In this document: positions 3,833-21,731 of the stretch, piece by piece
Layout: each line of letters begins with the position of its first letter
Position numbering within the stretch: the first letter of the stretch is position 1
From: Planktomarina sp.
GTDB taxonomy: Bacteria; Pseudomonadota; Alphaproteobacteria; Rhodobacterales; Rhodobacteraceae
Direction: 5' to 3'
DNA: 45,786 bases
Assembly: GCA_020629235.1 (NCBI GenBank)
Contig: JAHDDS010000002.1
Coordinates: 1-45,786 of the forward strand
The notes under the pieces: model-generated
What the model saw: the letters and a program-made list of their open reading frames with translations, nothing else
Told to the model about the DNA's origin: nothing
Databases searched by the model: none
Program-made: the position numbers and the translations under genes

Positions 3833-5341
3833 ATGTCTGTACCTGTGTTTGTTCTGGCCGGGCAAAGCAACGCTGGCGTGTTGCACGACAGCGTGGTGGC
3901 CGCACTGGACGCGCGCTTTGGATCCGGCGGATACGCCTTGGCCACATCCTTTGCCGGCGGCGCGCCTTTGGTGTTCAAAAGACCGGGCCTGGACTGGCAC
4001 GCCAGTTCTGAAATGCCCACCCAATTGGCCGACGCCACGGCCCAGGTTTTGGAAAACACCGAAGGCGGTTTTCTGGCGGGCATGATTTGGGTCCAAGGGG
4101 AAGCGGACACCTATCCCATCGCCGATGCGCAAACCTATTCAGACGATTTTTTGAACCTGGTGGTGACGGTGTCGGACCTGCTGACCGACCGCGTGGGCGC
4201 GGACCACGGGTTCGACGACATGGCCATCGTTTTGTCCGAACTGGCCAACACCGCCCCCGCCGCCGCCGCGCGCGCCCATTGGGACACGATCATTTCGCAG
4301 CAAGACATCCTGGCCGATCTGGACGCCATCACATCCGTCGACCCGGACGCCCTGATGGCCGCACTGGGCCTGACCCCAGACGCCGCGTTTCGCGACCACT
4401 TGCACTACAGCGCGGGCTTTGAAGATGACCTGGCCCGGGCCTTGGTGGACGCCTTGCCACCCCCCGCGGATACAGCGCCGCAATCCCCCGCAGCGGACCA
4501 TTGGATCGGATCACCCCAGGCGGACACCTATGTTGTGGATCACTTCGAAGACACAATATTTGAACCGCGCGGCACCGGCACGGACGTGGTCCTCAGTTCC
4601 GTCGATTTCAGCTTGCGCGACCACAGCCAGCGCTTGGAAAACTTAACCCTGGTGGGGGACGATGACCTGCGCGGCGTGGGCAACGGGCGGCACAACCTGC
4701 TGGAAGGAAACGCTGGCGACAACCGCCTGTTCGGCATGTGGGGCAACGACACGCTGATCGGCGGTGACGGGCGCAACCTGCTGGATGGCGGCCAAGGCGA
4801 CGACACCTTCGTTGTGTCCAGCCCCCTGGACCGGCTGGTGGAACGGGCCGACCAAGGCCACGACCAAGTGCACGCCCACGTCGATGTTTCGCTGCGCAAC
4901 CATTCCCAGCACCTGGAAGACCTGTACCTGATGGGCACCGATGATCTGCGCGCCACGGGCAATGGCCGCGCCAATCTGATGATGGGCAACGCCGGCGACA
5001 ACCGCATCGACGGGGCCTGGGGCCGGGACACGATTGATGGCGGGGCCGGAAACGACACCCTGGTGGGGGGGCACCACGGCGATGTCTTCCGGTTTTCTGG
5101 CGACAGCGGCCACGACGTGATCCGCGACTTCACCTTGGGCGAAGACCGCATCGATTTGGCCGACACCGCCATCCCAGACCCCGCCGCCGCCGCAGACTTC
5201 CTGCTGGGACATGCCCGGGTGGACGCGGACACCGACCTTCTTTTGGACCTGGGGGATGGGCGGTCCATCCGATTGTTGGACGTGGTGGACGACGGTCCGC
5301 CCGCACCCATGGACGCCTATGCCGACATGTTTTTTTCGTAG
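3833..5341 (+). CDS. Secreted SASA-type esterase with C-terminal RTX repeats
   Basis: A 502-residue two-part protein. Residues 1-210 resemble the sialate O-acetylesterase (SASA/CE6) branch of SGNH hydrolases: VFVLAGQSN places Ser12 as nucleophile, MIWVQGEAD (84-92) is the conserved central block, and DHLH (188-191) gives the Asp-His pair. Residues 225-480 are a hemolysin-type calcium-binding region. It contains two copies of a module about 93 residues apart (starting near 259 and 352) with SLRxHSQxLExL, DDLRxxGNGR and GNAGDNR, followed by GGxGxD nonapeptides. The absence of an N-terminal signal peptide and the aromatic, acidic C-terminus (DAYADMFFS) fit type I secretion. No secretion genes are nearby. 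It probably removes acetyl or similar esters from an extracellular glycan; the substrate is unknown. Confidence 0.8.
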   Translation: MSVPVFVLAGQSNAGVLHDSVVAALDARFGSGGYALATSFAGGAPLVFKRPGLDWHASSEMPTQLADATAQVLENTEGGFLAGMIWVQGEADTYPIADAQTYSDDFLNLVVTVSDLLTDRVGADHGFDDMAIVLSELANTAPAAAARAHWDTIISQQDILADLDAITSVDPDALMAALGLTPDAAFRDHLHYSAGFEDDLARALVDALPPPADTAPQSPAADHWIGSPQADTYVVDHFEDTIFEPRGTGTDVVLSSVDFSLRDHSQRLENLTLVGDDDLRGVGNGRHNLLEGNAGDNRLFGMWGNDTLIGGDGRNLLDGGQGDDTFVVSSPLDRLVERADQGHDQVHAHVDVSLRNHSQHLEDLYLMGTDDLRATGNGRANLMMGNAGDNRIDGAWGRDTIDGGAGNDTLVGGHHGDVFRFSGDSGHDVIRDFTLGEDRIDLADTAIPDPAAAADFLLGHARVDADTDLLLDLGDGRSIRLLDVVDDGPPAPMDAYADMFFS

Positions 5342-5365
5342 AAAAAAATGTTTCGCACGCGAAAC
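5330..5365. repeat. Two short hairpins at the 3' end of the RTX esterase gene
   Basis: TTTTTTTC (5330-5337) pairs with GAAAAAAA (5341-5348) around a GTA loop, and the gene's TAG stop (5339-5341) lies in this loop and stem. It is followed directly by GTTTCGC (5350-5356) and GCGAAAC (5359-5365). Both may belong to the transcript's 3' end. Confidence 0.5.
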
Positions 5366-5460: not shown

Positions 5461-5530
5461 CGATTTCTGTGACAGAAATCGGGGCAGAGTCTCTGCGAGA
5501 CTCTGATGCGGAAACTGTGTCAGTTTCCGC
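5461..5530. repeat. Array of three 9-3-9 hairpins at 24-nt pitch (copy 1)
   Basis: Three perfect hairpins, each with a 9-bp stem and 3-nt loop, begin at 5461, 5485 and 5509. The arms are CGATTTCTG/CAGAAATCG (loop TGA), CAGAGTCTC/GAGACTCTG (loop TGC) and CGGAAACTG/CAGTTTCCG (loop TGT). The last stem extends to 10 bp (5508-5530). The spacers are GGG and ATG. The array lies 7 nt from the stop codon of prpE and between convergent genes. The same architecture recurs at 18240-18308. A bidirectional terminator or RNA 3'-end element is likely, but there is no long T-run beside this copy. Confidence 0.85.
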
Positions 5531-5536
5531 GCGGGA

Positions 5537-7426
5537 TCAGCCCCCTGCATAGCCCAGGGTTTTTAGGGCGGCTTCAATTTCCCCCAAAATTGCAGGGTCG
5601 TCGATGGTGGCGGGCATTTTGTAATCCTTGCCGTCGGCGATGGACACCATTGTGCCGCGCAGAATTTTGCCAGACCGCGTCTTGGGCAAGCGGTCCACCA
5701 CGCAGGCCAATTTGAACGCGGCCACAGGCCCGATCTTGTCGCGCACCAGCGCCACCACTTCGCCCACCACATCTGCCGGGTCCCGGTCGATGCCTGCGTT
5801 TAAGCACACGAACCCCAAGGGCAGTTGCCCCTTCAAAGCATCCGTCACGCCGATCACCGCGCATTCCGCCACATCGGGGTGGGACGCCAGAACCTCTTCC
5901 ATCCCGCCGGTCGACAGGCGGTGGCCCGCCACGTTGATCACGTCATCGGTGCGCGCCATGATGTAAAGATACCCGTCATCGTCCATCATGCCCGCGTCCC
6001 CGGTTTCATAGTATCCGGGGAAGGTGGTCAGGTAAGATTTCACAAAACGGTCTTCGGCATTCCAAAGCGTGGGCAACGTGCCGGGCGGCAGGGGCAGCTT
6101 AACCGCAATGGCCCCCAAGTCGCCCCGCGGCACTTCATGGCCGCCGTCGTCCAGAATTTGCACGTCGTATCCGGGCATGGCCACCGTGGGGGATCCGATT
6201 TTGACGGGCAGATGTTCGATTCCCAAAGGATTGCCCGCGATGGTGTATCCGGTTTCGGTCTGCCACCAGTGGTCAATCACAGGCACGCCCAACTGGTCTT
6301 GCGCCCATTCGATGGTGTCCGGGTCGGACCGTTCGCCCGCCAAGAACAGCGATTTCAAGCACGACATATCGTACCCTTTGACGAATGCGCCCTGGGGGTC
6401 TTGGCGTTTGATGGCGCGAAACGCCGTGGGGGCGGTGAACAGGCATTTGACATTGTGTTCCGAAATCACCCGCCAAAAGGTGCCCGCATCCGGCGTGCCG
6501 ATGGGTTTGCCTTCGAACACGATGGTGGTGTTGCCCGCAATAAGGGGGGCGTAACAGATGTAGGAATGCCCCACGACCCAGCCCACGTCTGACGCGGCCC
6601 AAAACACATCGCCCGGGTCCACGTCATAGATGTTCTTCATGGTCCACTGCAGCGCCACCAAATGGCCAGCGGTGGGGCGCACCACGCCCTTGGGCTGCCC
6701 CGTCGTGCCAGAGGTATAGAGGATATAAGCCGGGTGATCGCCCGCCACAGGCGTGCAGGGGGCAGGGGCCACGTCGGCCTGGAATTCGTGCCAATCCACG
6801 TCGCGCGGGCCCATGTCCGCTGCGCATTCCGCGCGCTGCAAGATCACGCAGAAGTCTGGCGTGTGGCTGGCCAAATCTATGGCCCCGTCCAGCAGGGGTT
6901 TGTATTCCACCACGCGCCCCGGTTCCAACCCGCACGATCCCGCGATGATGGCTTTGGGGGTGGCGTCGTCGATGCGCACGGCCAATTCGGCCGCCGCGAA
7001 CCCGCCGAACACCACCGAATGGATGGCCCCGATGCGCGCGCAGGCCAACATGGCCACCAGCGCTTCGGCCACCATGGGCATGTATATGATCACCCGGTCG
7101 CCTGCGCCCACGCCCTTGGCCACCAATCCGCCCGCCAGGGACGCGGTTTGGGTTTGCAAGTCGGCAAAGGTCAGCTTGGATTGCGTGCCGGTCATCGGGC
7201 TGTCATAGATGATGGCCGTCTGATCGCCGCGCCCGTTTTCCACGTGCCGGTCCACGGCGTTGTAACAGGTGTTCACCCGGGCATCTTTGAACCATTCGTA
7301 CAGCGGTGCCGCGTCGTCCCACAGCGCTTTGGTGGGGGGACTGTCCCAATCAATGGCACCCGCCGCCGCCATCCAGAACCCTTCCGGGTCCGCCTTCCAG
7401 CCGTCGTAAATGGATGCATAGCTCAT
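5537..7426 (-). CDS. prpE: Propionyl-CoA synthetase
   Basis: An AMP-forming acyl-CoA synthetase (629 residues) that activates propionate, and probably acetate or other short acids, to the CoA thioester in the cytosol. The adenylation motif YTSGTTGQPKG lies at about residues 237-247, and the C-terminal PKTRSGKILRGTM segment holds the catalytic lysine near residue 587. CGLEPGRVVEYKPLLDGAI and the N-terminal YDGWKADPEGFW match the PrpE/ACSS3 branch rather than classical Acs. I place the start at 7424-7426 (MSYASIYDGW), preceded by AGGGAG; the frame stays open 26 codons further upstream but without homology or a binding site. Its stop lies next to hairpin array 1. Confidence 0.9.
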   Translation of the reverse strand: MSYASIYDGWKADPEGFWMAAAGAIDWDSPPTKALWDDAAPLYEWFKDARVNTCYNAVDRHVENGRGDQTAIIYDSPMTGTQSKLTFADLQTQTASLAGGLVAKGVGAGDRVIIYMPMVAEALVAMLACARIGAIHSVVFGGFAAAELAVRIDDATPKAIIAGSCGLEPGRVVEYKPLLDGAIDLASHTPDFCVILQRAECAADMGPRDVDWHEFQADVAPAPCTPVAGDHPAYILYTSGTTGQPKGVVRPTAGHLVALQWTMKNIYDVDPGDVFWAASDVGWVVGHSYICYAPLIAGNTTIVFEGKPIGTPDAGTFWRVISEHNVKCLFTAPTAFRAIKRQDPQGAFVKGYDMSCLKSLFLAGERSDPDTIEWAQDQLGVPVIDHWWQTETGYTIAGNPLGIEHLPVKIGSPTVAMPGYDVQILDDGGHEVPRGDLGAIAVKLPLPPGTLPTLWNAEDRFVKSYLTTFPGYYETGDAGMMDDDGYLYIMARTDDVINVAGHRLSTGGMEEVLASHPDVAECAVIGVTDALKGQLPLGFVCLNAGIDRDPADVVGEVVALVRDKIGPVAAFKLACVVDRLPKTRSGKILRGTMVSIADGKDYKMPATIDDPAILGEIEAALKTLGYAGG

Positions 7427-7484
7427 GGCGTGTCTCCCTGCCGCATGGGCAATGTGATGCAGTGATTGCGCTCTGATTTCAAGA

Positions 7485-7520
7485 TGCCATGCGATGGCAC
7501 CCATGGGGGCTTTCCATGGG
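7485..7520. promoter_or_regulatory. Adjacent inverted repeats in the prpE/lipoprotein divergent region
   Basis: TGCCAT (7485-7490) and ATGGCA (7494-7499) form one inverted repeat. CCCATGG (7500-7506) and CCATGGG (7514-7520) form a second directly beside it. They share the ATGG half-site and lie between the two divergent start codons, so they could bind a regulator of prpE. No known motif was recognised. Confidence 0.35.
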
Positions 7521-17271: not shown

Positions 17272-17342
17272 GTCGCATTCCTTCTGTTTCGGAGTCTTAA
17301 AGAGGCTTGAAGCGTCCCTGGCAAGAGGGCAGGCACGACGAC

Positions 17343-18239
17343 ATGAATAAGAACCTATCAGCCATCGGTTTTATCCTGTCGGGGATGTGCATTTTGGGGG
17401 CCATCGACAATGTCATTGTCCTGATTTCGCCCGAAGTCGGCCTGTGGCAATTCCACTTCGCGCGCAGTGCGCTGGCGGTGCCCATGTTGCTGGCCGTGGG
17501 CCTGGCCTTTGGATGGCGGTTGCGACCCAACCGGCTGTGGTGGGTCACGGGCCGCAACATGTTCTTGTCCATCGCCATGTTCATCTATTTCGGGTGTCTG
17601 GGCTTCTTTCCCATTGCGCAAGTGGCGGCGGGTCTGTTCACCGCGCCGATTTTCGTGATGATCATCAGCGCAGTTTGGACCCGCCAGCCCATTGGGCCCA
17701 TTCGCATTTTTGCGGCCCTGGTGGGGTTTGTGGGGACGATGCTGGTGCTGCGGCCTGAAGTTGGGGCCTTCGGATGGCCCAACCTGATCCCCATTGCCGC
17801 AGGGCTGAGTTATGCCTTTGGCAATGTGGTCACCCGACGCTGGTGCGAAGGGGAAAGCGCCTTTGCCTTGTTGTGGTCCTACATGGCGATCATGGGGGTA
17901 ATGGGCGGCGCGGTGCTGGTGTATTTGATGATCAATCCCACCGGCCTGGACGGGTATCTGACCCGTGGCTGGGTCTGGCCCAGTGGAACGGTCTGGTTCT
18001 GGATCGTGATGCAGGCGATCTTTTCGCTGATCGGGATAGGCTTCATCATGCAGGCCTATCTGATCGGGGAAGTGACCTATGTCACCATCTTCGAATACGC
18101 CATGTTGATCAGCGCAGGCTTGACCGCGTATCTGGCCTTTGGCCAAGTGGTGCCGCCCTTGGGGTTGCTGGGGATCGCGATCATCGTGGCCACCGGCGTT
18201 GTGATTGTTATGCGCACAGCCAAGGCCGACGCGCCCTAG
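17343..18239 (+). CDS. EamA/DMT-family transporter
   Basis: A 298-residue inner-membrane protein with about ten hydrophobic helices arranged as two EamA repeats, for example IGFILSGMCILGAIDNVIVL at the start and LLGIAIIVATGVVIVM at the end. Members export amino acids, nucleosides or other metabolites; the substrate is unknown. I prefer the ATG at 17343 (MNKNLSAIGF), which begins at the first helix; an ATG at 17307 would add 12 polar residues. It is divergent from the acyl-CoA synthetase, and its stop is followed with no gap by hairpin array 2. Confidence 0.85.
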   Translation: MNKNLSAIGFILSGMCILGAIDNVIVLISPEVGLWQFHFARSALAVPMLLAVGLAFGWRLRPNRLWWVTGRNMFLSIAMFIYFGCLGFFPIAQVAAGLFTAPIFVMIISAVWTRQPIGPIRIFAALVGFVGTMLVLRPEVGAFGWPNLIPIAAGLSYAFGNVVTRRWCEGESAFALLWSYMAIMGVMGGAVLVYLMINPTGLDGYLTRGWVWPSGTVWFWIVMQAIFSLIGIGFIMQAYLIGEVTYVTIFEYAMLISAGLTAYLAFGQVVPPLGLLGIAIIVATGVVIVMRTAKADAP

Positions 18240-18308
18240 CATTTTTCGAAACGAAAAATGGAACAGAGCCTCTTAGAGGCTCTGCCCAAAATTCTGTTTC
18301 AGAATTTT
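18240..18308. repeat. Array of three 9-3-9 hairpins at 24-nt pitch (copy 2)
   Basis: Perfect 21-nt hairpins begin at 18240, 18264 and 18288. The arms are CATTTTTCG/CGAAAAATG (loop AAA), CAGAGCCTC/GAGGCTCTG (loop TTA) and AAAATTCTG/CAGAATTTT (loop TTT). They fill almost all of the 70 bp between the convergent stop codons of the DMT transporter (18239) and the fadB-like gene (18310). Read on the minus strand, the order, the GGG spacer and the middle hairpin match copy 1 at 5461. The terminal T-run could allow intrinsic termination of the transporter transcript. Confidence 0.88.
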
Positions 18309-18309
18309 T

Positions 18310-20493
18310 TTAAGCGGCGAACCGGTCGTAGAACCCTTCGCCTTTGTCCGCCAGATCGCGCACCAACGCAGGGGTGTCGAACCGCGCGCCGAATTTGGCC
18401 GACAGTGCGTCGCAGGTTTCCGCAGCCCAAGGTGCCCCCACCATGTCCAGCCAGGACAGGGGACCGCCAGACCACGGCGCAAAGCCCCAGCCCATGATCG
18501 CGCCCACGTCGCCTTCGCGGATGTCCAGCAGAACGTTTTCTTCCAAGGCGCGCACGGCTTCCAAGACTTGGGCGAACATCAGGCGGTTTTGCACTTCGGT
18601 CAGGTCAGGCTGGTCTGCCGCTTCGGGGTATTGATCGGTGAAGCCGTCCCACAGACCCGTCCGTTTGCCCCGTTCGTCATAGTCATAAAAACCGGCCGAC
18701 GTTTTGCGACCCAAACGGTTCAGACCTTCCATCCAGAAGATCACCTCATCCACCGCCGCGTCGGGGTATGCGTCCCCCATGGCGGCTTTGGTGGCCTTGG
18801 CGATCTTGGCGCCAAGGTCGATGGATGTTTCGTCCACCAATTGCAGCGGTCCCAAAGGCATGCCCAAAAGACGCGCGCCGTTTTCGATCAAGGACAGGTT
18901 CACACCTTCCTTGGCCATGCGGATGCCTTCGTTGATGTACGGAATGATGCAGCGGTTGGCGTAAAAGAACCGCGCGTCGTTCACCACGATGGGCGTCTTG
19001 CGGACTTGGCGGTTGAAATCCAGCGCCTTGGCCACGGCCCGGTCGCCGGTCTTTTCACCCTTGATGATTTCCAGCAGGGGCATTTTCTCTGCCGGGCTGA
19101 AGAAGTGCATGCCGATGAACTGGTCTGGCCGTTTGGATGCCTTGGCCAGTTCAGAGATCGGAATGGTAGACGTGTTGGTGGCAAAGATGCAGTCGTCGCC
19201 GATCACGGCTTCCACTTTCTGGGTCATCTCTGCCTTCACTTTGGGGTCTTCGAACACCGCTTCGATGATCAGATCGCAATCCGCCAGGGCCGACAGGTCA
19301 GGCGTGGCGGTGATCTTGGCCAGATAGGCTTCTTTCTTGTCTTCCGTGATCTTGCGGCGTTTGATGCCCTTGTCCCAGTGCGCTTCGGCATAGGCTTTGC
19401 CTTTGTCAGCCCGGTCCTGGTCCATGTCGATCAGCACCACGTCGATGCCCGCTTGGGCCGACACCAGGGCGATGCCCGCGCCCATCATGCCCGCGCCCAA
19501 CACGCCCAGTTTCTTGACGGATTGATCGGGCACGTCCTTGGGGCGCACAGCGCCTTTTTCCAGGGCTTCTTTGTTGATGAACAAAGACCGGATCATGTTG
19601 CCGGACGATGGGTTCATCAACACGTGGGTGAACCAGCGCGCTTCAATTTTCAGGGCGGTGTCAAACGGCACCATGGCGCCTTCGTATACAGCCGACAGCA
19701 ATGCCTTGGCCGCAGGGTACACCCCTTGGGTGTTGCCATTGACCATGGCGGATGCCCCCACAAAGGTCATGAACCCTGCGGGGTGATACGGCGCACCGCC
19801 TGGCATTTTCCAACCCTTCTGGTCCCAGGGCTTCACGATGTCTGCGTCTTTGGCGTTCAGCACCCAGTCTTTGGCGGCAGCCAGTGGATCATCGACAACT
19901 TCGTCGATCAGGCCCGCTGATTTGGCTTTCTTTGGGTCATACATCTTGCCCTGCAACAGCGGCTCTGACGCGCCCATGGCCCCCAGCTTGCGGCTGACAC
20001 GTGTGGTGCCGCCCATGCCGGGGAAGATGCCCACCTTGATTTCTGGCAGACCGATTTTGGCCTTGGGATTGTCGGCGCAGAAAATGCGGTGGCAGGCCAG
20101 CGGGATTTCCAAGCCGATGCCAAGCGCTGTGCCGGGCAGGGCGGCGGCGACAGGTTTGCCACCCTTGTTGGTCTTGGGGTCCATGCCCGCGCGTTCGATG
20201 CGCCGCAGTTGGCCGTGGGTGCGCATCAGCCCGTCAAACAACCCTTTGGCCGGGTTATCGCCCGCAGATTCCTTCATCTGCGCGATGACGTTCAGATCCA
20301 TCCCACCCGCGAAGCTGTCTTTCTTGCCAGACGTGATGACGATGCCTTTGACGGCGTCATCCGCCAAAGCGCTGTCGAAATGCGCCATCAGGTCTTCATA
20401 GCCCTGCATGTTCATAACGTTCATGGATTTGCCGACGGTATCCCATGTGATGATGGCAACACCGTCGTCGATTTTCATTGTGAAATCAGTCAT
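18310..20493 (-). CDS. fadJ: Bifunctional enoyl-CoA hydratase / 3-hydroxyacyl-CoA dehydrogenase (FadB/FadJ type)
   Basis: Catalyses the second and third steps of beta-oxidation. The 727-residue product has an N-terminal crotonase domain (about 1-200) with GTALGIGLEIPLACHR and GLPEIKVGIFPGMGGT, which hold the catalytic glutamates. An NAD-binding domain begins at GAGMMG (333-338), with IGMHFFSPAEKMPLLEII further on. The start at 20493 (MTDFTMKIDDG) follows AAAGGACCATTGAA; the frame is open 25 codons upstream. It is the last gene of the MerR-led operon, 26 bp after the thiolase. FadJ versus FadB naming is by size and partner type only. Confidence 0.9.
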   Translation of the reverse strand: MTDFTMKIDDGVAIITWDTVGKSMNVMNMQGYEDLMAHFDSALADDAVKGIVITSGKKDSFAGGMDLNVIAQMKESAGDNPAKGLFDGLMRTHGQLRRIERAGMDPKTNKGGKPVAAALPGTALGIGLEIPLACHRIFCADNPKAKIGLPEIKVGIFPGMGGTTRVSRKLGAMGASEPLLQGKMYDPKKAKSAGLIDEVVDDPLAAAKDWVLNAKDADIVKPWDQKGWKMPGGAPYHPAGFMTFVGASAMVNGNTQGVYPAAKALLSAVYEGAMVPFDTALKIEARWFTHVLMNPSSGNMIRSLFINKEALEKGAVRPKDVPDQSVKKLGVLGAGMMGAGIALVSAQAGIDVVLIDMDQDRADKGKAYAEAHWDKGIKRRKITEDKKEAYLAKITATPDLSALADCDLIIEAVFEDPKVKAEMTQKVEAVIGDDCIFATNTSTIPISELAKASKRPDQFIGMHFFSPAEKMPLLEIIKGEKTGDRAVAKALDFNRQVRKTPIVVNDARFFYANRCIIPYINEGIRMAKEGVNLSLIENGARLLGMPLGPLQLVDETSIDLGAKIAKATKAAMGDAYPDAAVDEVIFWMEGLNRLGRKTSAGFYDYDERGKRTGLWDGFTDQYPEAADQPDLTEVQNRLMFAQVLEAVRALEENVLLDIREGDVGAIMGWGFAPWSGGPLSWLDMVGAPWAAETCDALSAKFGARFDTPALVRDLADKGEGFYDRFAA

Positions 20494-20519
20494 TTCAATG
20501 GTCCTTTTCAGGTGTTGCT

Positions 20520-21731
20520 TTATACGCGTTCGATGATGGTGGCCGCACCCATGCCGGACGCCACGCACAGGGTCGCCATGCCGATCTCTTTGTCCTGGCG
20601 TTCCAACTCATCCAGCAATGTGCCGATGATGATGGCACCCGTGGCCCCCAGGGGGTGCCCCAAAGCAATGGATCCGCCGTTCACGTTCACCAAGTCGGGG
20701 TCCACGTCGAACGCCTGCTGGAACCGCAGCACGACGGATGCGAAGGCCTCGTTCACCTCGAACAAATCCATGTCTTTCACCGACAGGCCACTGTCTTTCA
20801 TGATCTTTTCGGTCACAGGCACCGGGCCCGTCAGCATGATGGTGGGGTCCAAGCCGATCTTTGATGTGGCGCGGATGCGGGCGCGGGGTTTCAGGCCGTG
20901 GGCCTCCCCAAATTCCTTGTTGCCCACCAGCACTGCGGCGGCCCCGTCCACGATGCCCGATGAATTGCCCGCGTGGTGGATGTGGTTGATCCGCTCCAGG
21001 TGCGGGTATTTCATCAGGGCCACTTTGTCGAACCCGGGCATGGCTTCGCCCATGTCTTTGAACGCGGGCTTCAAGCCGCCCAAGGACTGCATGTCCGTGC
21101 CGGGGCGGGGGTATTCGTCGCGGTCCAGAATGGTCAGACCGTTGATATCTTTGACCGCCACAATGGACTTGTCGAACCGCCCTTCGTTCATCGCCACCTC
21201 TGCCCGGTTTTGCGACCGCACGGCCAGTTCATCGGCGTCGTCGCGGCTGAAGCCGTATTCCGTGGCGATGATGTCGGCAGAGATCCCTTGGGGTACAAAG
21301 TAGTGTTCCATGGCAATCGACGGATCGACCGCAATGGCCGCCCCGTCAGACCCCATTGTTACCCGGCTCATGCATTCCACGCCGCCTGCGATATAGGCAT
21401 GTCCCGCCCCACCGCGCACTTGGTTTGCAGCCAGGTTCACCGCTTCCATGCCCGATGCACAAAAACGGTTGATGGACAGGCCGGGGATGCGTTGGTCCAG
21501 GTCGCTGTCCAACACGGCCGTCCGCGCCAAACACCCGCCTTGTTCAAAGGCCTGGGTGGCGTTCCCCCAGATCACGTCTTCCACCACGTGGCCTTCCAGC
21601 CCGTTGCGATCTTTCAAGGCGTTCAACACGCCCGATGACAACTTGGGCGCGGACACTTCGTGCAAGCTGCCGTCTTTGCGGCCCTTGCCCCGCGGCGTGC
21701 GCACCGCGTCATAGATATAGGCTTCGGTCAT
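20520..21731 (-). CDS. fadA: Acetyl-CoA C-acyltransferase (thiolase)
   Basis: Performs the thiolytic last step of beta-oxidation, acting with the FadB-like protein encoded next. The 403-residue product has the nucleophile Cys91 in NRFCASGMEAV, GGSIALGHPLGATGA with the catalytic histidine, and the second cysteine in the C-terminal CVASGMGAATIIERV. Length and motifs match FadA/FadI-type thiolases. It lies 11 bp after the GST gene in the same operon. Confidence 0.92.
   Translation of the reverse strand: MTEAYIYDAVRTPRGKGRKDGSLHEVSAPKLSSGVLNALKDRNGLEGHVVEDVIWGNATQAFEQGGCLARTAVLDSDLDQRIPGLSINRFCASGMEAVNLAANQVRGGAGHAYIAGGVECMSRVTMGSDGAAIAVDPSIAMEHYFVPQGISADIIATEYGFSRDDADELAVRSQNRAEVAMNEGRFDKSIVAVKDINGLTILDRDEYPRPGTDMQSLGGLKPAFKDMGEAMPGFDKVALMKYPHLERINHIHHAGNSSGIVDGAAAVLVGNKEFGEAHGLKPRARIRATSKIGLDPTIMLTGPVPVTEKIMKDSGLSVKDMDLFEVNEAFASVVLRFQQAFDVDPDLVNVNGGSIALGHPLGATGAIIIGTLLDELERQDKEIGMATLCVASGMGAATIIERV

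Follow-up and report, generated by a model that had tools for sequence, protein, structure and literature searches.

Palindromes of the REP, BIME and REPIN type are dispersed through extragenic DNA, at the 3' ends of genes or in the gaps of convergent pairs, and sometimes form inverted pairs or tandem runs; each REP family keeps one sequence. Double-hairpin elements of mitochondria are likewise dispersed and consist of two adjacent hairpins whose stems show compensated changes. The nearest known class to the arrays described here is that of the tandem-hairpin (U-, V- and X-shaped) terminators, at least as set out in the parts of PMC8355165 used here: groups of at least two hairpins close to stop codons, often lacking U-tracts, whose positions agree with RNA-seq ends in 13 genomes, all of them, by the same account, from outside Rhodobacteraceae. 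For Rhodobacter sphaeroides, stable structures are proposed to stop PNPase, according to the portion of PMC7866481 that concerns them.

We analyzed a stretch of 45,786 nt from Planktomarina sp. (GCA_020629235.1, contig JAHDDS010000002.1; hereafter the window), which contains two arrays of short perfect hairpins. These arrays, known here from sequence alone, fit the anatomy of the tandem-hairpin class as PMC8355165 outlines it: behind a stop codon, which is often no more than 20 nt away, stand two or more hairpins separated by <15 nt, in many cases with no U-tract, and the arrays resemble the X-shaped terminators in particular, which are coded by opposite strands. However, the clusters are defined in that outline solely by gaps of <15 nt, whereas the centers of the array hairpins are mostly 24 nt apart and their loops mostly 3 nt long, and, unlike the clusters, the arrays have intact stems that are nearly pure Watson-Crick and genome-specific dialects of stem sequence. 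The fixed pitch, the near-absence of wobble and the lineage dialects are thus new relative to tandem-hairpin terminators as there described.

Results

Two hairpin arrays in the window

Array 1 (5461-5529, plus strand) and array 2 (18240-18308) each hold three perfect hairpins of 21 nt (9 pairs and a 3-nt loop) at a 24-nt pitch with 3-nt spacers, just as a first-pass annotation of the sequence had described them, except for the final base of array 1. On the plus strand, array 1 reads CGATTTCTG.tga.CAGAAATCG (hairpin 1, 5461..5481), ggg, CAGAGTCTC.tgc.GAGACTCTG (hairpin 2, 5485..5505), atg, and CGGAAACTG.tgt.CAGTTTCCG (hairpin 3, 5509..5529, with one extra pair if 5508-5530 is taken). Array 2, whose hairpins are assigned to the minus strand but spelled here on the plus strand, reads CATTTTTCG.aaa.CGAAAAATG (18240..18260, hairpin 3 in the minus-strand reading), gaa, CAGAGCCTC.tta.GAGGCTCTG (18264..18284, hairpin 2), ccc, and AAAATTCTG.ttt.CAGAATTTT (18288..18308, hairpin 1 in the minus-strand reading), and runs into seven T on the plus strand. 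All 54 pairs of the two arrays are Watson-Crick. Perfect triloop hairpins with arms of at least 9 pairs number seven in the window, six of them in the arrays, whereas 50 dinucleotide shuffles averaged 0.28. Each array folds fully on either strand, with z-scores of -6.5 to -7.5 and equally stable shuffles in 0 of 200 cases. In its minus-strand reading, array 2 aligns with array 1, as had been claimed, and does so without gaps, but the likeness extends only to hairpins 1 and 2, the third hairpins (CGGAAACTG versus CATTTTTCG) being without recognizable similarity. Rfam gave no match in the window at gathering score, and among seven loci searched at E<=1 its sole match was RF02795 (27.1 bits against a cut-off of 71), away from the arrays. 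Nor did the literature searched, by titles and mostly outside subscription journals, yield a report of such hairpins for Rhodobacter or Rhodobacteraceae; in agreement with the first-pass annotation, neither source thus yielded a named element of this 9-3-9, 24-nt geometry.

Both arrays sit between convergent genes. At site 1, only the minus-strand gene ends near the array: the stop codon of an acetyl-CoA synthetase gene (5537..7504, minus strand; PF16177, PF00501, PF13193) is 6-7 nt away, and the plus-strand gene, which carries RTX repeats and a SASA esterase match (3833..5341), ends 119 nt before array 1. At site 2, the gap between the two stop codons is nearly filled by array 2, which touches the stop codon of an EamA-type transporter gene (17307..18239, plus strand; an ORF from TTG, a putative start) and lies 1 nt from that of a 3-hydroxyacyl-CoA dehydrogenase/enoyl-CoA hydratase gene (18310..20568, minus strand). 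The end of the plus-strand gene at site 1 has small hairpins of its own at 5330-5365, TTTTTTTC.gta.GAAAAAAA and GTTTCG.cacg.CGAAAC, which are perhaps the terminator of that gene.

Copies in Planktomarina and other Rhodobacteraceae

A covariance model trained on the two window copies found 18 distinct places at E up to 10 in the genome of origin, a Planktomarina-type MAG that is 87% complete, and 16 at E<1e-4, counting both window copies, which form the training set. Most of these copies are rows of two or three hairpins spaced at the 24-nt pitch, with stem letters of their own, and five (L012, L014, L016, L017 and L019) are imperfect. The same model matched one of 15 other genomes of the genus (G306) at E<=1, and an exact hairpin pattern also matches two records of a further Planktomarina MAG (MAG-137). 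Among 295 family genomes, the exact pattern of the shared middle hairpin occurs in the genome of origin only, which indicates that sequence is not the conserved feature; that of the commonest outer hairpin, in a separate search, occurs in 10 stretches of named genomes (Planktomarina, Rhodobacter, Gemmobacter and other Rhodobacteraceae) and in no viral contig. Carriers of the cassette include two culturable strains, Gemmobacter straminiformis CAM-8 and Rhodobacter amnigenus HSP-20. Inspection by eye shows GANTC, the motif of CcrM sites, in several of the middle hairpins though not in every one. Phage-type terminase and portal genes, which presumably form a gene transfer agent cluster, flank an array in two Planktomarina genomes (L007:1501-1569, where the genes were identified by Pfam match, and L039:3227-3295, by likeness of translations).

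Across the family, a doublet covariance model (R2, of 46 rows chosen for pairing) matched 52 of 248 Rhodobacteraceae genomes at E<=1e-4, with at most the best 25 candidates scored per genome, and a class-wide draw of 190 genomes produced two matches, in the genome of origin and in one other member of Rhodobacteraceae. The apparent limit to this family rests on the 190-genome model scan, in which the model leans to its training dialects and the filters lose weak matches. Hosts are marine and freshwater Rhodobacteraceae, and copy number is very uneven among related genomes: G104 alone has at least 128 R2 matches counting both strands, or roughly at least 64 doublets, a lower bound from the best 150 of 1531 candidates. 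The common form in the Rhodobacter, Gemmobacter and G104 loci examined is two facing doublets with a spacer of variable length between them. Each genome has its own stem dialect, and stems are quite different between genera. The first-pass annotation had staked its case on further copies in related genomes, and the stake held: the same pitch and compensated stems recur in the genome of origin and in other genera. At one G104 site (L061:1919-2231), a 67-nt unit with a hairpin doublet is repeated in tandem, two of its inner second hairpins being decayed, and a similar but more decayed run is present at L065.

A pitch that is measured without sequence

We scanned 12 slices of nine genomes (the genome of origin, G045, G002, G137, G104, G148, G200, G188 and G239; about 2.0 Mb) for any hairpins of at least 8 pairs, irrespective of sequence, and counted neighbor distances of up to 80 nt. 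The 24-nt class (23.5-24) contained 22 distances and the 25-nt class 5 (all 24.5), with three or fewer in each other class. This peak comes from slices of the genome of origin, G104, G002 and G137, and G188 contributes once. There was no 24-nt pair in the slices of G148, G200 and G239, of which G148 and G200 have model matches elsewhere, and the scan found none in 400 kb of G045, apart from one unrelated pair at 26.5. Three runs on block-shuffled G104 likewise gave no pair at 24. A mismatch-tolerant scan returned 23 perfect 9-pair doublets at pitch 24-24.5, all within five slices; in the same slices there were 3 perfect doublets at 23-23.5 and none in the 19, 21, 22, 25, 26, 27, 29 and 34 classes. 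The center-to-center distance is fixed although stems vary from 8 to 13 pairs. Other arrangements were also seen: a second layout of abutting hairpins with 4-nt loops (often TCGA) and a 22-nt pitch (L230, L237, L241 and L246), and, at G104:C1:53654 and 187618, clusters of other, mostly A/T-rich hairpins with stems of 8-15 pairs and 3- or 4-nt loops, which are spaced differently and are perhaps ordinary terminators.

Arrays lie close to stop codons

Genes were called with a simple codon-usage caller, which placed two doublets of the sequence-free scan and one G104 site inside genes. The 36 G104 loci (12 from the single-hairpin pattern and 24 among the model matches listed) divide into 13 convergent, 18 same-strand, 4 called divergent and 1 called inside a gene; one of the divergent calls (L060) is same-strand in another gene calling. 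Gaps of at least 40 nt in the first 400 kb of G104 are convergent in 24 cases, same-strand in 150 and divergent in 47, and convergent gaps look over-represented among the array sites. Placement between convergent genes, which had been reported for both window arrays, is correct for these two but for barely more than a third of the G104 loci, half of which are same-strand, and a convergent-only rule is rejected by this set. Closeness to a stop codon is the commoner rule.

By eye, an array edge lies within 18 nt of the upstream stop codon at 27 of the 31 convergent or same-strand G104 sites, and L277 makes a 28th if a spurious first hairpin is disregarded, its distance then being about 21 nt. 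The 36 loci contain 64 doublets, 32 of which are within 20 nt of an upstream stop codon (range -10 to +18), all but one of them between -10 and +8 nt; in seven of these anchored doublets, the hairpin itself supplies the TGA stop. The remaining 32 are >20 nt from a stop codon and are largely the far halves of four-hairpin sites. At 15 of the 18 same-strand sites (omitting L061, L068 and L288), hairpins are perfect in 28 of 32 cases far from the stop codon versus 26 of 26 at it. The gene caller puts an upstream stop codon no more than 14 nt from 14 of the 16 arrays in the genome of origin. L012 is unanchored by the gene caller, but by eye a minus-strand frame ends 2 nt away, and L015:1501-1570 is unanchored as well, the called minus-strand gene reading (by eye) through its last hairpin and stopping in the middle hairpin, as though the array had been inserted into the gene's 3' end.

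The anchored G104 doublets are not followed by a U-tract: T makes up 16% of the next 10 nt after the 32 doublets. The arrays thus share with canonical Rho-independent terminators a hairpin behind the stop codon but lack the U-run right after it, array 2 on the plus strand being the exception, and unlike such terminators their stems are often A/T-rich in the middle; the missing U-tract weakens this reading. Read in the sense direction, 30 of the 32 anchored doublets have a first loop bounded by purines, mostly ACG. However, the layout of ACG on the left and CGT on the right is unchanged at divergent sites, clearly at L062 and less so at L059, and since loop orientation follows the layout of the cassette even there, it is no independent proof of a role in RNA. 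The divergent-looking sites themselves (L059, purD/xseA; L062, carB/pabB-like; L271; and one in G002) count against a function in RNA.

Loci chosen by protein homology alone

Several genera each have one array behind a small gene without a Pfam match. These genes form a family of about 76 aa with a C-terminus like NQEPIRR (e.g., G104:C1:242610-242840 and homologues), often with two or more copies per genome, and paired hairpins regularly follow them. We searched with the small protein, the only choice of sites that was made blind to hairpins, and obtained matches in 58 of 120 family genomes; these include paralogues and so represent one gene family, not strictly one site. At 21 of 30 loci picked in this way, a tandem hairpin pair of 21-25 nt pitch stands behind the stop codon (24 in 12 loci, 22 in 4, 23 in 2, 25 in 2 and 21 in 1), its first hairpin a median of 1 nt away, and a tandem pair arose in 0 of 3000 letter shuffles. 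Nine loci have no pair by this rule, although two of them (L241 and L247) show pairs by inspection; in five (L223, L225, L227, L242 and L244) the frame runs at least 26 codons past the match, so that its stop codon may not correspond to that of the other loci.

Stems change on both sides

In the 46 rows of R2, which were picked for pairing, 99.9% of 828 cells pair, and double changes occur at all 18 pairs. We also compared four arrays that the genome of origin shares with two other Planktomarina genomes, at sites matched by eye (terminase/portal; PQQ-type dehydrogenase/GlxA-like regulator; P450/small gene; TetR/racemase); a fifth candidate (L010/L025) was left out, as its array is by eye on another side of the shared gene. 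All were found by hairpin pattern or model, so that copies with lost pairing would be missed, and of their 108 pairs 92 are unchanged, 15 carry a double change that gives another Watson-Crick pair, and a single one, an outermost pair, has changed on one side. Spacers, at 20 of 24 letters, differ nearly to saturation, loops at 14 of 36, and stems at 31 of 216. The pairing is very probably under selection, as the first-pass annotation had proposed, with compensated stems in the genome of origin, in other genera and at the four shared sites.

Wobble pairs are nearly absent. In a search that tolerated up to five G-U or A-C but disallowed other mismatches, and to which 30 loci chosen by pattern or model had been added, 57 of 58 9-3-9 doublets at pitch 24 had neither, the exception joining a family hairpin to an unrelated one. 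The slices alone yielded 23 doublets with no mismatch, 2 with one, 5 with two and 59 with three or four; of the seven with one or two, two are inner copies of the G104 tandem run and the rest look unrelated by eye, and the 59 resemble background, among which decayed members would be missed. A rough count from ARAGORN drawings puts the transfer RNA stems of these slices at about 32 G-U in 488 pairs, so that the doublets are stricter than an acknowledged RNA structure, which counts against an action at gene ends in RNA. When G-U is set against A-C as a test of strand, one imperfect copy (L017) shows, by eye, four G-U if read on its coding strand and none if read on the opposite one; the other copies have too few wobble pairs for this comparison. 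A need to pair on both strands, a function at the level of DNA, or template switching could each explain the near-absence of G-U.

Discussion

Rows of two or three short perfect hairpins (two plus two in some genera), mostly with 24 nt between centers, thus stand behind stop codons in Rhodobacteraceae, and pairing is maintained while their spelling drifts. This points to a previously unstudied marking of gene ends. With a probability that we place close to even but short of it, the arrays are two-way cassettes that act in RNA at transcript 3' ends. Once the upstream gene is transcribed, the row would fold behind the stop codon and set the 3' end of the mRNA, either by blocking 3'-to-5' exonucleases (PNPase-like) once RNA polymerase has left the template downstream, or by acting as a tandem terminator that needs no U-run; we think these two routes the most likely because the U-tract is missing. 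Palindromic stems would allow one cassette to serve transcripts from both sides, and such two-sided use would explain why G-U pairs, which are good on one strand only, are shunned. The second hairpin, 24 nt on, could stay folded while the terminating ribosome covers the first. Both the choice between a polymerase stop and an exonuclease stop and the reason for the fixed pitch are what we infer, and some results sit awkwardly with the RNA reading: a simple exonuclease barrier needs no exact pitch, a 22-nt layout exists, copy number varies strongly between relatives, half of the 64 G104 doublets stand away from a stop codon, and at same-strand sites such far doublets are almost as intact as the anchored ones.

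It is possible, though unlikely, that the cassette instead works in DNA, its perfect palindromes forming cruciforms or being bound by protein, and that it marks gene borders or buffers supercoiling. The absence of G-U and A-C from all but one doublet, and of any mismatch from the 23 slice doublets, would be expected of such an element, as would the preservation of far doublets at same-strand sites, the existence of divergent sites and a center distance that ignores stem length. Yet the tight anchoring to stop codons suits RNA better, some copies in the genome of origin (L017) hold G-U pairs, 24 bp is a non-whole number of helical turns, and a dimer that reads DNA needs no step-wise swapping of A-T and T-A at every site. 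A dimer site as the sole explanation is rejected, given that free A/T positions change in step.

The arrays are alike to REP, BIME and REPIN elements with their RAYT in dispersal and placement, and a selfish repeat of this kind (or MITE-like), its four-hairpin form consisting of two inverted doublets and its presence tolerated mainly at gene ends, would account for the genome-specific dialects, the 60 or so doublets in one genome, the inverted order of doublets with ACG and CGT loops, the tandem 67-nt copies and the cassettes that supply a stop codon. Array-less sites also agree with mobility and count against a role in RNA: in the congener G045, the gap between the EamA and FadJ-like orthologues (28 nt by the gene caller), which in the window holds array 2, has no hairpin of at least 6 pairs, and the counterparts of the array 1 region (behind acs) and of L015 are likewise array-less, making three shared sites without one. 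Nevertheless, we consider this origin improbable. Element sequence is not conserved across copies, in which stems vary with pairing kept, so that it is geometry that persists; by eye, the spacers between doublets differ from copy to copy; arrays common to Planktomarina genomes have saturated spacers and are therefore old rather than fresh; and no target-site duplication was seen at the one gap compared. A RAYT-borne origin is without support, since a search for Y1 transposases (PF01797), the only type sought, found one in a single carrier genome (G099) of 11 and none in the other 10. Mitochondrial double-hairpin elements resemble the arrays in their adjacent, compensated hairpins, but occur in other genomes.

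Least probable of all, and in our view very doubtful, is that perfect pairing is a by-product of replication in which template switching copies arm onto arm so that selection on each pair is unneeded. Such a process is reported, in the part of PMC8794818 that bears on it, to create and maintain hairpins, and in its favor the stems show double changes that skip a G-U stage, among them A-T to T-A and G-C to C-G swaps. But it leaves the stop-codon anchoring and the pitch unexplained, stems at the shared sites are far better kept than spacers, and redundant inner copies decay (L061 and L065).

A broader and rather less likely proposal is that gene ends in Rhodobacteraceae carry a code of structure only, perfect palindromes centered 24 nt apart whose dialects drift while the layout is kept across genera, and that a postulated factor reading both strands senses pairing and spacing rather than sequence. 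The different rates at which stems, loops and spacers evolve within 69 nt offer a natural test of selection against template switching. Little is known about gene ends in high-GC alphaproteobacteria, and the regular, anchored layout of these arrays provides a direct experimental handle on them.
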